This document shows positions 46,990-53,105 of a stretch of 64,000 nt of DNA, one piece after another (position 1 is the first letter of the stretch; each line of letters starts with the position of its first letter). Source of the DNA: a virus; the IMG/VR virus record IMGVR_UViG_3300029911_000025, positions 1 through 64,000 of that record, one strand, 5' to 3'. The notes beneath the pieces are model-generated. The model saw nothing but the letters and a program-made list of their open reading frames with translations, was not told the DNA's origin and did not search any database. Both the position numbers and the translations under genes were made by a program.

Positions 46990-47049
46990 CAGGCCACCAC
47001 GGGGCAGGCCACCACGGGGCAGGCCACCACGGGGCAGGCCACCACGGGG
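46990..47049. repeat. 15-bp tandem repeat, four copies
   Basis: Four exact copies of CAGGCCACCACGGGG stand in tandem in the divergent intergenic region. They lie about 110 bases upstream of terS. Exact tandem units near a terminase gene could be protein-binding sites, for example for packaging or replication initiation; this is only a suggestion. Confidence 0.9.
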
Positions 47050-47178
47050 CAGCGGCGCCCCGTGGTACTAACCTATCACCCTAACCAAATCGCCGTGTGG
47101 CTCGCTTATTTCGGTCTTAGCGTGGGTCTGCATTTATTTTCAGTAAAAGTGAAAATAGGGGCTAGGCAGACTGGATTT

Positions 47179-47210
47179 CAACCCCTAAGCTGCATGCAGC
47201 TTAGGGGTTG
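47179..47210. repeat. Perfect 32-bp palindrome
   Basis: The 32 bases are a perfect inverted repeat with no spacer; each half is 16 bases and begins CAACCCCTAAGCTG. No T tract follows on either strand, so it is not a typical terminator. It ends 30 bases before the start of the 47241 gene. It may be a dimeric operator or form a cruciform at an origin. Confidence 0.92.
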
Positions 47211-47240: not shown

Positions 47241-47513
47241 ATGCAAATGTCCAACCTAGTAAAGTTTGCCGCGCGCCTAGCACAATGCAACGAATGCGCA
47301 GTACCAAGCGCGGGCAAAGTGGCCGACATACTGTTTAACGGTGGGTTCGCCACTAGCAAAACACTAACCGAAATAGACGCGTGGCTTGCTACACTTACCG
47401 AAGACCAATTAGAAACACTGGCCGATGGTGAAGAAGAAGAACAGCAAGCTTTGGAAGCAACGGCGCCTCACGAAACGCATAACGTAGTAACCGAATTGTT
47501 TGAATCGCTTTAG
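47241..47513 (+). CDS. Small acidic phage protein (90 aa)
   Basis: The sequence AECNECAV-like start (LAQCNECAVPSAGKVADILF), then GFATSKTLTEIDAWLATLTE and an acidic EEEEQQALEATAP end belongs to a small helical phage family of unknown function. The ATG is preceded by CGGAAGG. A terminator follows at 47563. It stands alone between divergent units, so it may be expressed at a different time from its neighbours. Confidence 0.75.
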   Translation: MQMSNLVKFAARLAQCNECAVPSAGKVADILFNGGFATSKTLTEIDAWLATLTEDQLETLADGEEEEQQALEATAPHETHNVVTELFESL

Positions 47514-47562: not shown

Positions 47563-47591
47563 AACCCCACGCCTTGTGCGTGGGGTTTTTT
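47563..47591 (+). terminator. Rho-independent terminator
   Basis: The stem AACCCCACGC and GCGTGGGGTT with a short CTTGT loop is followed by a run of T. It lies 50 bases after the stop of the 47241 gene. On the minus strand no T run follows, so minus-strand transcripts from the NusG-like gene could read through. Confidence 0.88.
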
Positions 47592-47708: not shown

Positions 47709-48221
47709 CTATGCCGCTAGATCTTTAAAGTCTACAATCGCTTTAATGTGCGAGTCTACCATAACGCGCACTGCGCCGTTCTGTTCAATACCGATTACCA
47801 AAGCTGAACGGTTAGCAAAGCTGGACCCGGCTACAAACCGCAGCAGATCACCGGCTGAGAAATCATGTAACAGTGCGCGCGATAATACTTTGCCCGAAGT
47901 ATCGCAGCCCGCCATAATCTTTGCCATTACGTTGTCGGGAAGCAACGCGGGCTCGCCTTCGGCGCTTTTCAGGAGATAGTTCACGTCGCGCGTCGCTTTT
48001 ACTAGCGCCAGTGCAGCATCGTCTTCTGTTCTACAGAACAAGTATCGTGGCCACCGTGGGATCTCTGTGTCTACGGCCTTAAACACTGTGCGCCCACGTG
48101 TAGGGGCCTTGACGCGTTGCTTTTCCACAGTATAGGGGCAGAATACTTGGAGTCCTAGGGCGACCAAGCGGTCGCGCACTAAGAATTCTGTAGCGCCAAC
48201 GGTGACTAGGACCGTCCACAT
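47709..48221 (-). CDS. NusG/RfaH-like transcription antiterminator
   Basis: The 170-residue protein has the NusG N-terminal domain: MWTVLVTVGATEFLVRDRL, FCPYTVEKQRVK, and IPRWPRYLFCRTEDD, the region that clamps RNA polymerase. A KOW-like C-terminal domain follows (HDFSAGDLLRFVAGSSFANRSA, VMVDSHIKAIVDFKDL). In bacteria such paralogues (RfaH, LoaP) suppress pausing and termination in special operons. Here it is transcribed on the late strand and lies 832 bases upstream of terS, with a single gene on the opposite strand between. It probably allows transcription of the 28-kb late operon. An upstream TATACC element may be its promoter. Confidence 0.85.
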   Translation of the reverse strand: MWTVLVTVGATEFLVRDRLVALGLQVFCPYTVEKQRVKAPTRGRTVFKAVDTEIPRWPRYLFCRTEDDAALALVKATRDVNYLLKSAEGEPALLPDNVMAKIMAGCDTSGKVLSRALLHDFSAGDLLRFVAGSSFANRSALVIGIEQNGAVRVMVDSHIKAIVDFKDLAA

Positions 48222-48697
48222 TCGCCTGTATATTCCCCGACTACGCGCAACGGTATGGCCTAGGCTCCTAAAGACGGTATAGGCTCAGGTCTCCGCCTCT
48301 CTGTTCTTCAGTGCTCGCGCGCGTTGGCAGGGTAAAAAACGCCGCAAATGCACAGTATTGGCCACCCCGTAAGTTATTGTTTTTATTAAACCTGAAACAA
48401 GCGTTGCCATGGCTGCGCACGCAACCAAAGTGAGCACAAACTATTAAAAAGCAAAGCAAAAAGGGCAAAAAACTACGAATTGAACATAAGCCTCCGCACG
48501 GTAACCCCATTTTGGTGGAACCTTTACTAAACTAATTGGGATTTATTTAGTAAGGGGCGGAGCATATACTGCTTGCGGGCGGCTGTGTAGCAAACGCCTT
48601 TGTAGCAAAAACCGAATTTACTGAGTAAAAACAAGCACTTACGCGAAAATGCCCAAAAGCTAACCCATTGTTTTTATTAAACAATAAAGGAATTCAA
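48222..48697. other. AT-rich regulatory region with repeats
   Basis: No convincing gene lies here; a minus-strand frame of 80 residues has no ribosome site. The 16-base word ATTGTTTTTATTAAAC occurs twice (48376-48391 and 48667-48682), the second inside an inverted repeat TTGTTT/AAACAA. TGTAGCAAA occurs twice near 48587 and 48601. An imperfect inverted repeat (TTTACTAAA and TTTAGTAA) spans about 48522-48554. A TATACT box stands at 48565. It is likely the control region of the divergent NusG-like gene and the 48698 gene, and possibly an origin. Confidence 0.65.
48565..48570 (+). promoter_or_regulatory. Putative -10 box TATACT
   Basis: A TATACT box is set in AGCATATACTGC. The same hexamer occurs at 54687, 57209 and 61478, each ahead of a gene without coupled upstream neighbour. 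No consensus -35 is seen at 17 bases, so recognition may rely on another factor. It would give a 5' leader of about 120 bases before 48698. Confidence 0.5.
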
Positions 48698-49120
48698 ATG
48701 CGCGAGGAAGTAAAGAACCGACTAATGCGGCAAGTTAACCTTGGAGTAGACAAAGGACTGCGCCTGGAACTGCGGTGGGAATCCGGATTTACAGTAACAG
48801 TCCACTCGTGGGAAGCAGCCGCCGTCATTACCAAGGCCGGACTACAGAAGCGGCAGAATAGTAAGAACAAAGCATCTACGTTTAGAGTAAATTTCTACCA
48901 AGAAGTCTACGCCGACGGAATAATGTGCGTGAACCCGGACACTATGTCCGTAGAACTATGCTTTGTCGCCTTAGTACAGAACGCGCGCCGTGGTCCACCC
49001 GTTAGTGACGAAGTGCGAAAGCGCAAAGAAAAAGAGGTCGAGCTAAAAGTACAGGCGCGCGCTGTGAAGCTAAGAAAAGCCGAACTAGAGTTAGAACGAC
49101 TGAGAGCCAAGCATGCCTAA
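48698..49120 (+). CDS. Hypothetical protein with C-terminal coiled coil (140 aa)
   Basis: The ATG at 48698 has AAAGGAATTCAA in front; an earlier in-frame TTG has none. Residues 1-100 are mixed with strands (FTVTVHSWEAAAVITKAGL, MSVELCFVALVQNA). From about 105 the protein is a highly charged helix (SDEVRKRKEKEVELKVQARA onward) likely to be coiled coil. Base composition here is lower in GC than the arms. The next gene overlaps it by eight bases. Confidence 0.7.
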   Translation: MREEVKNRLMRQVNLGVDKGLRLELRWESGFTVTVHSWEAAAVITKAGLQKRQNSKNKASTFRVNFYQEVYADGIMCVNPDTMSVELCFVALVQNARRGPPVSDEVRKRKEKEVELKVQARAVKLRKAELELERLRAKHA

Positions 49121-49307
49121 AGTAGATCCTCGCTCCCCCGAAGAACTGAAGTACCAAGCTAAACTGAACAAAGTGAACAAACAGATACAGAAACTAAAAG
49201 GAGAACTGATGGCCGACCGCCTTGATGTCGCTTTATACTGGCGTAAGCATTACAGAATCAAGCTAAGACTTGCGCGCCATCACCGCAAAGCTTGTCCAAA
49301 AAGATAA
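49113..49307 (+). CDS. Small basic coiled-coil protein (64 aa)
   Basis: The protein is a single long basic helix (PEELKYQAKLNKVNKQIQKL), followed by a Lys/Arg/His-rich end (YRIKLRLARHHRKACPKR). It overlaps the previous gene and probably works with it, since both are coiled-coil proteins. Nucleic-acid binding is plausible. Confidence 0.65.
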   Translation: MPKVDPRSPEELKYQAKLNKVNKQIQKLKGELMADRLDVALYWRKHYRIKLRLARHHRKACPKR

Positions 49308-50163
49308 ACGGAGATACAGGCCGACGGCGACCCTAGTCGGTGTAATGTTATCACCGCCCGCCCGGTCGGCCTGTATCTCTCGCATTTTGGCCTTTACGGG
49401 CCGTCCCCCTACGCGGGCGGGCGGTTGCCGTACCCCGTGCAGCGCCAGCCGCCCCACGGTCCAAATAATGCTTGCATCTCCCATTAAAACGACCGACAAA
49501 GAGGTCGGCGCATAGTGCGCCTATGGAGAGCCTTGCATTTTGTAAACACGGGGCAACGCCCTAGGACCCGCCTTACTTAGCGACCCGGATGGGCGCCACT
49601 AGGCCAACAGTACAACCTAACGCACAGGCATTGCGTAGGGAGCCCGGTTACAAGCGCCACCCCAAGAAGCGCCCCGCCCGATAATGCCACAGCCCGAGGT
49701 TAAGCCCGCCACAGCGTAGCCAGTGCGGGCGCCAAGGCAGACGGCGCGGCAAAGGGAGGCAGGGATACGGCTAGTAACAGAGCCGCGCTAGGGCGAAGCT
49801 TTGGCTGTATACAGCCGCAACAGTGCAACCGCCCGCCCCGCCATAAGCAACCGGCCACAACTAAGGCGATAGGTGAGACCAAGCGACTATAAGGACCGAG
49901 CAGACCCTAGCGCTACACAATAAAACTCTGCGATGCGCGAAGGGCGGCTGTGGCCAAGCTATAAGCGACGCATGAAAAACGCCCCATACCCGAATTTGGG
50001 GAGCGCCCGTTGGCGCAAATACAGCGACCCCGCCCCGCTATGCTGCAAAGCATGGCGGGGCGGTGACGTTTTACTGAAGGCCGAAACGGCTATGCCGTCC
50101 AGACGTTATACGTTTGCTGACGAGGCCTAATGCCCGATCAGATAACACTGAAGGACCAAAACA
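49308..50163 (+). ncRNA. Candidate large structured noncoding RNA region
   Basis: This 856-base stretch has no convincing gene but a dense series of strong hairpins. A perfect 15-base-pair helix joins 49311-49325 to 49365-49379. Others include CCGAC/GTCGG with the adjoining GGCGCA-TAG-TGCGCC near 49493-49521, ACGCA/TGCGT (49620-49636), GCGCGGC/GCCGCGC (49743-49789) and GGCTGTATACAGCC (49803-49816). A 14-base-pair stem with a GCAA tetraloop spans 50031-50062. Phages are known to carry large RNAs such as GOLLD and ROOL in this size range. I cannot match it to a class; two small frames (49270-49515, 49933-50130) are the alternative reading. Confidence 0.5.
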
Positions 50164-50763
50164 ATGACCAAGACCGTTACTAAAGACACTCGCCCCTCCA
50201 AGGGCGGCGAACCGACCGTGACCAAAGTGGCTACGGCGCCCGCGCACGGCGCAACGGACAAAGCGCCGCATACTAAGCGCGCCGTTGCTGAAAACGCGGC
50301 CGCGACCAAGCTTGCCAAGGCCGAGAAAACCTTGGCCGACGCCAAGGCGGCGGTGACCGTTGCAACCGCAACCGCCACTAAGGCTAAGGGCGCCGCCCGC
50401 AAGGACGCGTTTACCGCCAAGGCGGCGGCCGAACTGGCTGTCATCGCGGCAAACAAGGCGGTCAACGCCCTAAAGCGTGAGGCAATGACCCCGGAAGAAC
50501 GCGCCGCAACCGCCAAGCCCGCCAAGGCGGCGACCAAGACGCCCCGCGTCGCGGTGAACCGGACGATCTCCAAGGGGTCGGTCGTGTACGCCAACGCCAA
50601 GGGCGGCTGGACCTTGTACATGGTCACGCTGACCCTGAAGCACAAGGACACGGACAGCGCGACCGCCGCGCACAAGGATGGCGCCGCGAAAGCGGGTTAC
50701 CCCGCGACCAAGCCGCTGGACTTCAAGTGGATGGACGCCAAGGGGTACATCAAGCTCGGCTAG
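50164..50763 (+). CDS. Lys/Ala-rich DNA-binding-like protein with shared C-terminal domain (199 aa)
   Basis: Residues 1-130 are a histone-H1-like run of Ala, Lys and Thr (ATKLAKAEKTLADAKAAV and similar), probably DNA-binding. The C-terminal 60 residues (GGWTLYMVTLTLKHKDTDSA to LDFKWMDAKGYIKLG) match the ends of the proteins at 11872-12543 and 51338-51913. The start is preceded by TGAAGGACC. A strong hairpin follows the stop by 15 bases. An abundant nucleoid-associated role is a guess. Confidence 0.72.
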   Translation: MTKTVTKDTRPSKGGEPTVTKVATAPAHGATDKAPHTKRAVAENAAATKLAKAEKTLADAKAAVTVATATATKAKGAARKDAFTAKAAAELAVIAANKAVNALKREAMTPEERAATAKPAKAATKTPRVAVNRTISKGSVVYANAKGGWTLYMVTLTLKHKDTDSATAAHKDGAAKAGYPATKPLDFKWMDAKGYIKLG

Positions 50764-51109: not shown

Positions 51110-51341
51110 CCCAAAGCTGAGCGCTGCGGACATCGCGATAGCGGTGAACCGCGCGCCAACCATGTTCAAAGCTTGCCAGCGCGTCGCCGCCCATGGGCGG
51201 GAGCGTTGCACTAGCGAAGACTTCGCCAAAGCGCTGCGCCGCTATGACGCGGACACGGTGAAGCGCTTGGAAAATCGCTTTGCCGCGTTGTCCGCTGGAG
51301 AGCGCGCGGCGATCATATCCGCGCTCATGGCGCGCCTATGA
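51099..51341 (+). CDS. Small helical protein, duplicated domain (80 aa)
   Basis: The GTG at 51099 is chosen because the upstream part of the frame lies inside the preceding gene. Residues 18-75 (APTMFKACQRVAAHGRERCT, EDFAKALRRYDADTVKRLENRF) match the N-terminus of the next protein (APTIFAACQSIS, ARAVQNVDAATLAKAEKRF), so the two genes contain a tandem duplication. The function is unknown. Confidence 0.65.
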   Translation: MRSDPKLSAADIAIAVNRAPTMFKACQRVAAHGRERCTSEDFAKALRRYDADTVKRLENRFAALSAGERAAIISALMARL

Positions 51342-51913
51342 TCGCCCCGACCATCTTCGCGGCATGCCAGAGCATCTCGGCCGTACACTGTACGGTCGAG
51401 GGCTTTGCGCGCGCCGTGCAAAACGTGGACGCGGCGACGCTAGCCAAGGCTGAGAAGCGCTTTGCCAAGGCAAAGCCCGATCAGCAGATGGCCATGGCGC
51501 GTCAGTTCATGTACAACGAAAAACTCCCTCATGAGAAGGAACCGACTATGAGAGATCTCGCCGCAATGTGGACAGGGAAGGCGATCTTTACCGACGCCTT
51601 CCTAAAAGTCCTGCCAAGGCGCCAGACGACCGCCCAAGAGCCTGAGCCGCGTGTGGCGACTAAGAGGGTAGTGACGACCCGCCAGACTCGCGTCCGCCAA
51701 GGCGCGACGATCTACTATACAGCGGGACCGGCTCAGCACCGACGTGGTCGCAACGTGATGAACTGGACGAACTACATGGTCCGGACCATCCTCGCCCATG
51801 GTAACACGCGGGACGCGGTCGCGGCTCACAGAGAGTCCGGCGCGTATCAAGAGAAGAAGCTGGACTTCAACTGGATGTTCAAAAATCAGTACATTACCAA
51901 GGCCGACCCCTAA
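51338..51913 (+). CDS. Protein joining the duplicated helical domain and the shared C-terminal domain (191 aa)
   Basis: Residues 1-60 repeat the helical domain of the preceding gene. The middle (about 60-125) is a linker with LPRRQTTAQEPEPRVATKR and VRQGATIYYTAGP. Residues 133-191 form the C-terminal domain (MNWTNYMVRTILAHGNTRDA to LDFNWMFKNQYI) shared with two other phage proteins. A hairpin overlaps its stop codon. Role unknown; basic linkers suggest nucleic-acid contact. Confidence 0.7.
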   Translation: MIAPTIFAACQSISAVHCTVEGFARAVQNVDAATLAKAEKRFAKAKPDQQMAMARQFMYNEKLPHEKEPTMRDLAAMWTGKAIFTDAFLKVLPRRQTTAQEPEPRVATKRVVTTRQTRVRQGATIYYTAGPAQHRRGRNVMNWTNYMVRTILAHGNTRDAVAAHRESGAYQEKKLDFNWMFKNQYITKADP

Positions 51914-52001: not shown

Positions 52002-53105
52002 ATGACAATCTGGAGAGCAAACATATACGCTGCGAAATGCAGTGTATGCGGAATGGAGCTCCCTCCAAACGAGGGGTGCTACCGCGTTGACTCAGTAATG
52101 GGGCGCAAATTCTACTGCGCGACACACAGGTACGAGTTCGACGTAAGCGGCGAACCGGCCCCTGAGCCCGCGTTTGCCAAGAACGCGGCAACGTCAGCGG
52201 TCAACGTAGAGGGCGTCGACGTCGACGACCTTGCGCGCAAGACTGCTGACCTCACCTTCGAAAAGGTGGCCGAGCATTTCGTGGCCACGGTCGGCCCCGG
52301 CGTCGAGAGGATGCTCCCAGCGCTTGTGCGGTCCGAGCTTCTCAAGGTCACCAAGGTCGCGGAGATCAAGATTGGTAAGGCGCCCAGTGTAAAGCTGGAC
52401 AAGAGCCACGCCATGCTCCCGACGATACTTCAGGCCATGGTGGCGGGGTCCAACCCATTCTTGGTCGGCCCAGCCGGTTCCGGCAAGACCACACTGGCGA
52501 AGCAAATCGCCAAGGTCATGGGGCTGAAGTTCTACATGGCGGCGCGAGTCACCAGCGAGTTCAAGCTTATCGGCTTCGTGGACGCCCATGGCGCCACGGT
52601 TCGCACAAGCTTCCGCGAAGCGTACGAATACGGTGGAGTCTTTCTCTTCGATGAGGTGGACGCCAGCGACGCGGACGCCATGACAAGCTTTAATGCCGCG
52701 CTGGACAACGGCATGTGTGACTTCCCGAACGGTCTTGTGCAAGTCCACAAGGACTTCCACGCCATTGCGGCGGGCAATACCTTTGGGCGCGGCGCAGACC
52801 GCCAGTATGTCGGCCGCAATCAACTGGACGCGGCCACTATCGACCGGTTCGACTTCTTCGAAGTCGACTATGATGAAGCGCTGGAGCACGAAATCGCTGG
52901 GGACACGGAATGGACCACCTATGTCCAGAAGATCCGCGCGCAAGTGATGGCGCAACAAGTCCGGCACATTGTCAGCCCGCGTGCCTCTATACGGGGCGCG
53001 CGCATGCTCGCCGCCGGTATGGACCGCGGAGTCGTCGCGGACGCCACGATCTGGAAAGGTCTGGCGGCTGACGTACGGCGCCGCATAGAGAACGGGGTGC
53101 TCTGA
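52002..53105 (+). CDS. MoxR/CbbQ-type AAA ATPase with N-terminal zinc finger
   Basis: The 367-residue protein has an N-terminal treble-clef-like finger (CSVCGM, then YCATH, with C13, C16, C39 and H42). The AAA core follows: Walker A GPAGSGKTTLA near residue 150, FLFDEVDASDADAM (Walker B), AIAAGNTFGRG (sensor 1) and ATIDRFDFFEVDYDE (arginine region). It resembles CbbQ/NorQ/GvpN-type ATPases of the MoxR group, which remodel partner complexes, usually with a VWA-domain protein. The next gene, overlapping by one base, may be that partner. AGGAG precedes the start. Confidence 0.88.
   Translation: MTIWRANIYAAKCSVCGMELPPNEGCYRVDSVMGRKFYCATHRYEFDVSGEPAPEPAFAKNAATSAVNVEGVDVDDLARKTADLTFEKVAEHFVATVGPGVERMLPALVRSELLKVTKVAEIKIGKAPSVKLDKSHAMLPTILQAMVAGSNPFLVGPAGSGKTTLAKQIAKVMGLKFYMAARVTSEFKLIGFVDAHGATVRTSFREAYEYGGVFLFDEVDASDADAMTSFNAALDNGMCDFPNGLVQVHKDFHAIAAGNTFGRGADRQYVGRNQLDAATIDRFDFFEVDYDEALEHEIAGDTEWTTYVQKIRAQVMAQQVRHIVSPRASIRGARMLAAGMDRGVVADATIWKGLAADVRRRIENGVL

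Follow-up and report, generated by a model that had tools for sequence, protein, structure and literature searches.

GOLLD RNAs are often encoded near tRNA genes, although such a location is not an absolute requirement. Large phage RNAs of unknown function, to which they belong, constitute an open problem. Cryo-EM structures have shown that GOLLD and ROOL form RNA-only cages, the function of which is unknown (PMC12286853). In phage ICP1, which carries no tRNAs, the most abundant transcript is a non-coding RNA of ~800 nt, produced from a gene-free gap of ~1 kb (PMC7567579). The locus described here, an 856-nt stretch at 49308-50163 on the plus strand, was put forward in the original prediction as a possible new RNA of this kind.

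The window analysed, 64 kb of DNA (64,000 nt), represents nearly the whole of a 64,774-base virus record from an uncultured phage. Its family A DNA polymerase is 43-44% identical to those of Stenotrophomonas phage vB_SmaS-AXL_3, Pseudoxanthomonas phage PW916 and MW202621; for its primase the identity is 43-45%. Judged by these two proteins and the terminase, the phage is placed near the Mesyanzhinovviridae/Axeltriavirus group, as a Mesyanzhinovviridae-like siphovirus. The late genes occupy the minus strand as far as ~47 kb, and the early and replication genes the plus strand from ~48.7 kb. The early operon begins with a small ORF (48698-49120, plus strand) with no family match and no assigned function, followed by a small plus-strand ORF of 64 aa (49113-49307) that ends at the edge of the stretch. 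Directly 3' of the stretch lies a Lys/Ala-rich gene (50164-50763, plus strand) of no known family, and then come the gene for an AAA (MoxR-like) ATPase (52002-53105, plus strand; Pfam AAA_5), a DUF7192 gene and the primase gene.

The region from the end of the upstream ORF (49307) to the start of the downstream one (50164) proved to be gene-free, as had been predicted, and no internal frame has a codon-usage score as high as that of real genes. When folded as a whole and compared with 20 dinucleotide shuffles, its plus strand gives -357.9 kcal/mol with a z-score of -4.5; the minus strand also folds well (z -3.8). The view that a dense chain of hairpins fills the gap holds for the strong hairpins of the outer thirds, with z-scores of -4.2 and -4.6, but not for the filling, as the middle third (49593-49877) scores +0.9. 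A genome-wide scan of 285-nt tiles, performed for the plus strand, revealed other tiles with z-scores of -4.6 to -5.7. Thus, the excess of structure in 49308-50163 is real but not unique within the genome. Scanning of the plus strand of the stretch detected no terminator-like, promoter-like or sigma70-like site; an early transcript would therefore continue across it into the gene at 50164. The stretch is regarded as a candidate leader or intergenic RNA.

Two individual helices near the 5' end stand out. Helix A, perfect over 15 bp (49311-49325 with 49365-49379; duplex -28.6 kcal/mol), starts 4 bases beyond the preceding ORF's stop codon. This helix was correctly reported before; no other perfect inverted repeat in the 64 kb with a loop of up to 60 bases is as long. 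Among 200 dinucleotide-shuffled versions of the stretch, no perfect stem exceeded 11 bp, whereas the actual sequence has two of 12 bp or more. Helix B, perfect over 12 bp (49353-49364 with 49414-49425; duplex -28.1 kcal/mol), begins within the loop of helix A and ends beyond it, with 0 bases between the two inner arms; the two helices interlock and may form an H-type pseudoknot. The 49414-49425 arm has an alternative partner at 49828-49838, where a second copy of ACCGCCCGCCC is located. Further downstream on the same strand, an inverted repeat allows a 9-bp long-range pairing of GCGCTAGGG with CCCTAGCGC (49785-49793 with 49905-49913), and a hairpin at 50030-50063 is closed by a GNRA-type GCAA tetraloop (50045-50048). 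The stem of this hairpin, previously counted as 14 bp, comprises 15 pairs including one U-G.

The Rfam 15 covariance models found no family at its gathering score in the window, and the sole match up to E 5 in 49000-50400 was a chance one to narK (18.9 bits against a cut-off of 43.2; E 0.83). None of the models for GOLLD, ROOL and OLE, which had been recommended as a check, matched even at that permissive threshold. The remark that no tRNA lies next to the stretch was accurate, and in fact there is none in the whole 64 kb. Without an Rfam match and without a tRNA, an assignment to GOLLD, ROOL or OLE is unsupported, and the stretch is not one of these RNAs. The suggested likeness to GOLLD and ROOL is one of length (~0.65-0.9 kb), phage-borne setting and strong folding; the stretch differs from both in having no covariance-model match, no nearby tRNA and a middle third with no excess structure, and in being known from sequence alone. 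With the ICP1 RNA it shares a lytic phage, a gene-free gap of ~1 kb and the lack of tRNAs. However, the ICP1 RNA is encoded at the lysis cluster and was detected by RNA-seq, whereas the stretch lies in an early operon. A blastn search with the stretch against 50,697 phage records gave no match, and the likeness to the ICP1 RNA rests on size and setting.

The same nucleotide search with 6.5 kb around the stretch also returned nothing, and protein searches of bacterial genomes with the flanking genes gave no match. A 22-kb contig met in single-protein searches with the flanking genes carries identical DNA, the only second copy of the stretch to be found; it supports the assembly and provides no covariation. 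Alignments of three proteins (primase, AAA and DNA polymerase) led to more distant relatives. In L010, L011, L012, L014, L036/L040, L037 and L089-L092, a short gene is followed by a gene-free gap, a Lys/Ala-rich gene and then AAA, DUF7192 and primase, completely or up to the contig limit. No fewer than nine related contigs have a gene-free gap in this position, and most of these gaps code for an RNA fold backed by compensatory changes. In L224 the first part of this order is shared, and its record has no AAA match. The AAA protein, the anchor of this synteny, is 49-57% identical to its counterparts in the relatives. The homology of the Lys/Ala-rich gene downstream of the stretch to that of the relatives is established through a C-terminal domain common to the post-gap genes (tblastn: 48% over 48 aa, E 5e-7, in L010; 47%, E 5e-4, in L012). 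The closest relative by DNA polymerase, L295 (62%), is laid out differently and contains nothing similar to the stretch.

Lys/Ala-rich early proteins with a common C-terminal domain of ~60 aa are encoded in the window at 50164-50763 and 51338-51913, and also in L010, L012, L092, L091 and L290. There are two copies in the window, two in L010 and three matches in L012. Searches of Pfam, PHROG and NCBIfam with these proteins gave no match.

The gaps of the relatives measure ~380-900 nt, and the gap of L011 holds two small genes. Those of L012, L091, L092, L089, L090 and L010 are mutually alignable, while the gaps of L014 and L224 share 72% identity over 354 columns. In comparison with column-shuffled alignments, the fold of L089/L092 has z-scores of -8.7 on the plus and -5.9 on the minus strand, that of L014/L224 -7.1 and -4.8, that of L012/L091 -4.5 and -4.2, and that of a four-sequence core (A12) -3.8 and -1.6. 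The plus strand is favoured in three of these four alignments. The pair L037/L040 is an exception, its minus strand outscoring the plus strand. Base pairs that persist although both partners have changed make up 20 of 86, 8 of 93 and 17 of 91 in the relatives' alignments; each of these contains two sequences, and RNAalifold picks the structure that it scores, so the counts are weak alone and the argument for a conserved RNA rests on the shuffles and the strand bias. Covariance model R1, built from L012, L014, L224 and L091, detects the gap of L090, which was absent from the building set (E 0.024), and model R2, built from L089 and L092, detects the gaps of L014, L224 and L010 (E 0.02-0.06). 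Taken together, these results indicate, with moderate confidence, that the relatives' element is one structured RNA locus.

The last helix of the element in L014 (L293 695-746), L224, L090 and L011 is a 9-bp pairing of CCUGCCCUA with UAGGGCAGG, which overlaps the following gene's ribosome-binding site in part. The helix is common to these four divergent contigs and may act as a translation switch. In L012, a module of two hairpins and a ribosome-binding site is duplicated (2310-2393 and 2687-2778, 78% identical), each copy preceding one of two successive genes.

Several relatives carry a sigma54-like site directly before the structured part. The exact motif TGGCAY[GA]NNNNTTGCW occurs 22 times in 2.05 Mb of loci with primase and AAA genes, where a scrambled motif does not occur at all, and nearly all of these sites fall in gene-free gaps, often as facing pairs. 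Sites matching TGGCAYGNNNNTTGCW were located in L010 (3941, 3961 and 4089), L012 (1595, 1615 and 1893), L036 (3951, 4000 and 4200), L089 (3437 and 3715) and L092 (3197 and 3474), as well as in L169-L288. The match to the sigma54 consensus continues into the flanking bases, and the distances between paired elements fall into clusters of 4-6, 22-24 and 32-33 bases, a pattern expected of elements on the same helix face. The sites are seldom immediately 5' of a gene start. A scan of IMG/VR for facing pairs returned at least 120 stretches, and none with a scrambled pair, the sites being concentrated in gene-free gaps of many uncultured phages; among the matches listed, TGGCAYGNNNNTTGCW is present at 614 sites per 1.0 Mb as compared to 1 for the scrambled version. 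In the window, no such site was found within 2 mismatches between 38124 and 54418, and for this reason these sites do not explain the finding made there. The facing sites merit a separate study.

In position, the stretch matches the relatives' element: a short early gene precedes it, and the Lys/Ala-rich and AAA genes follow. Like the RNA of L012, L014, L089-L092, L224 and L010, it is non-coding, hairpin-rich and embedded in the same gene order; unlike that RNA, it has neither the recognisable common fold nor the sigma54-like sites that accompany most of the relatives. R1, run with filters off, scores at most 2.7 bits in the stretch, and R2 at most 4.9 bits. A third model, R3, built from L037/L040, reaches 17.5 bits in the stretch, but also 14.0 bits on the opposite strand at the same hairpin, and it matches its own source on the minus strand; it recognises merely a long hairpin and was rejected. 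Local alignment of the stretch to the relatives' gaps gave best z-scores of 4.4 (L040) and 3.8 (L037), and these alignments were unconvincing by eye. The ORF at 48698-49120 resembles the short gene of the relatives by eye, a likeness unsupported by hhalign (relatives' short-gene family against 48698-49117, E 0.65). The stretch belongs to the relatives' locus by position and not by sequence.

The stretch very probably gives rise to a folded non-coding RNA. The reading that we favour, with a probability of about one half, is that it forms a leader or an intergenic element within the early mRNA, structured, untranslated and possibly processed, and that it has diverged from the RNA of the relatives, or has been replaced, beyond detection. 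It would be transcribed from left to right within the early mRNA and fold into a hairpin-rich untranslated RNA ahead of the Lys/Ala-rich and AAA genes. The 5' helix or pseudoknot and the 3' hairpins could shield the downstream message or mark it for processing, and the same structures may tune the translation of the next gene (50164). In the relatives, the last helix over the ribosome-binding site, together with the sigma54-like site before the element, fits a transcript that begins with the element, or ahead of it, and continues into the genes. Counted against this interpretation are the identical DNA as the only homologue, the blindness of R1 and R2 to the stretch, its plain middle third, the good folding of its minus strand and the minus-strand bias of L037/L040.

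A free-standing large non-coding phage RNA that represents a new family, works in trans or as an assembly of RNA, and resembles GOLLD, ROOL and the ICP1 RNA in size and setting, appears rather unlikely, although it accords with the 856-nt gene-free length, the strong outer helices and the GNRA-type loop, and although ICP1 offers a precedent for an RNA from a comparable gap in a phage without tRNAs (PMC7567579). Neither a promoter-like nor a terminator-like site delimits such an RNA on the plus strand, its middle third would be devoid of excess structure, no Rfam family matches it, and the element of the relatives reaches the gene start. The absence of a terminator-like site on the plus strand and this extension of the relatives' element to the gene start make a leader or intergenic element at least as likely as a free RNA. 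What stands of the proposed new large phage RNA is the phage origin, the non-coding character and the RNA-like structure. A broader proposal, which we advance tentatively, is that the stretch could belong, as a divergent representative, to a new RNA family whose large structured members head the early operon of Mesyanzhinovviridae-like phages, most of them behind putative sigma54-type promoters and acting as free or processed RNAs in host takeover or in the control of early gene expression.

An improbable alternative places the function in the DNA, as a control region such as a replication origin or a binding region for a phage protein, with the hairpins as a by-product. The early-operon position would suit it, as would the perfect inverted 15-mer, which lies where the relatives have comparably placed facing sigma54-like sites. 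However, the stretch lacks iterons, a third copy of the 15-mer and an A+T-rich unwinding segment, there is no clear GC-skew extremum there, and the changes in the relatives keep pairing, with the plus-strand bias described above. Antitermination by a put- or LoaP-like RNA acting with the neighbouring phage NusG-like protein has little to recommend it, apart from the length of the early operon and the gene for the protein itself (47709-48221, minus strand; Pfam NusG, E 1e-7; phrog_6386), which diverges from that operon; no relative of it turned up in the syntenic loci by tblastn, and put-type elements are far shorter than 856 nt. That the stretch is decayed or spacer DNA without function, its few strong hairpins being mere processing sites, is very improbable. 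The unstructured middle third, the other short intergenic hairpins of the genome and the lack of detected sequence conservation speak for it; against it stand the two strongest helices, which interlock and far exceed the shuffles, and a structured RNA kept at the same place in the relatives.

If real, the element would be an undescribed structured RNA locus heading the early operons of one siphovirus group. Owing to the conserved synteny, it is testable by RNA-seq in any cultivated member with the gap, and the compensatory changes and sigma54-like start sites of the relatives lead to concrete predictions about the start of the transcript, what follows it and the effect of a deletion.

Several other features were noted on the left of the early operon. 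At 46996-47066, in an intergenic region adjoining the small terminase gene, ACCACGGGGCAGGCC is repeated four times in tandem and followed by one GCCCCGTGGT able to pair with any of the copies. A perfect 14-bp hairpin with a CATG loop (47179-47210) precedes a 90-aa ORF (47241-47513, plus strand), and behind it, at 47563-47587, lies a strong hairpin that carries a T run and resembles a terminator; together they make up a small separate plus-strand unit, with the late genes on one side and the NusG-like gene on the other. Within the A+T-rich divergent intergenic region 5' of the early operon, an exact 16-base direct repeat, ATTGTTTTTATTAAAC, occurs at 48376-48391 and 48667-48682, 291 bases apart, and the second copy lies just before the start of the first gene.
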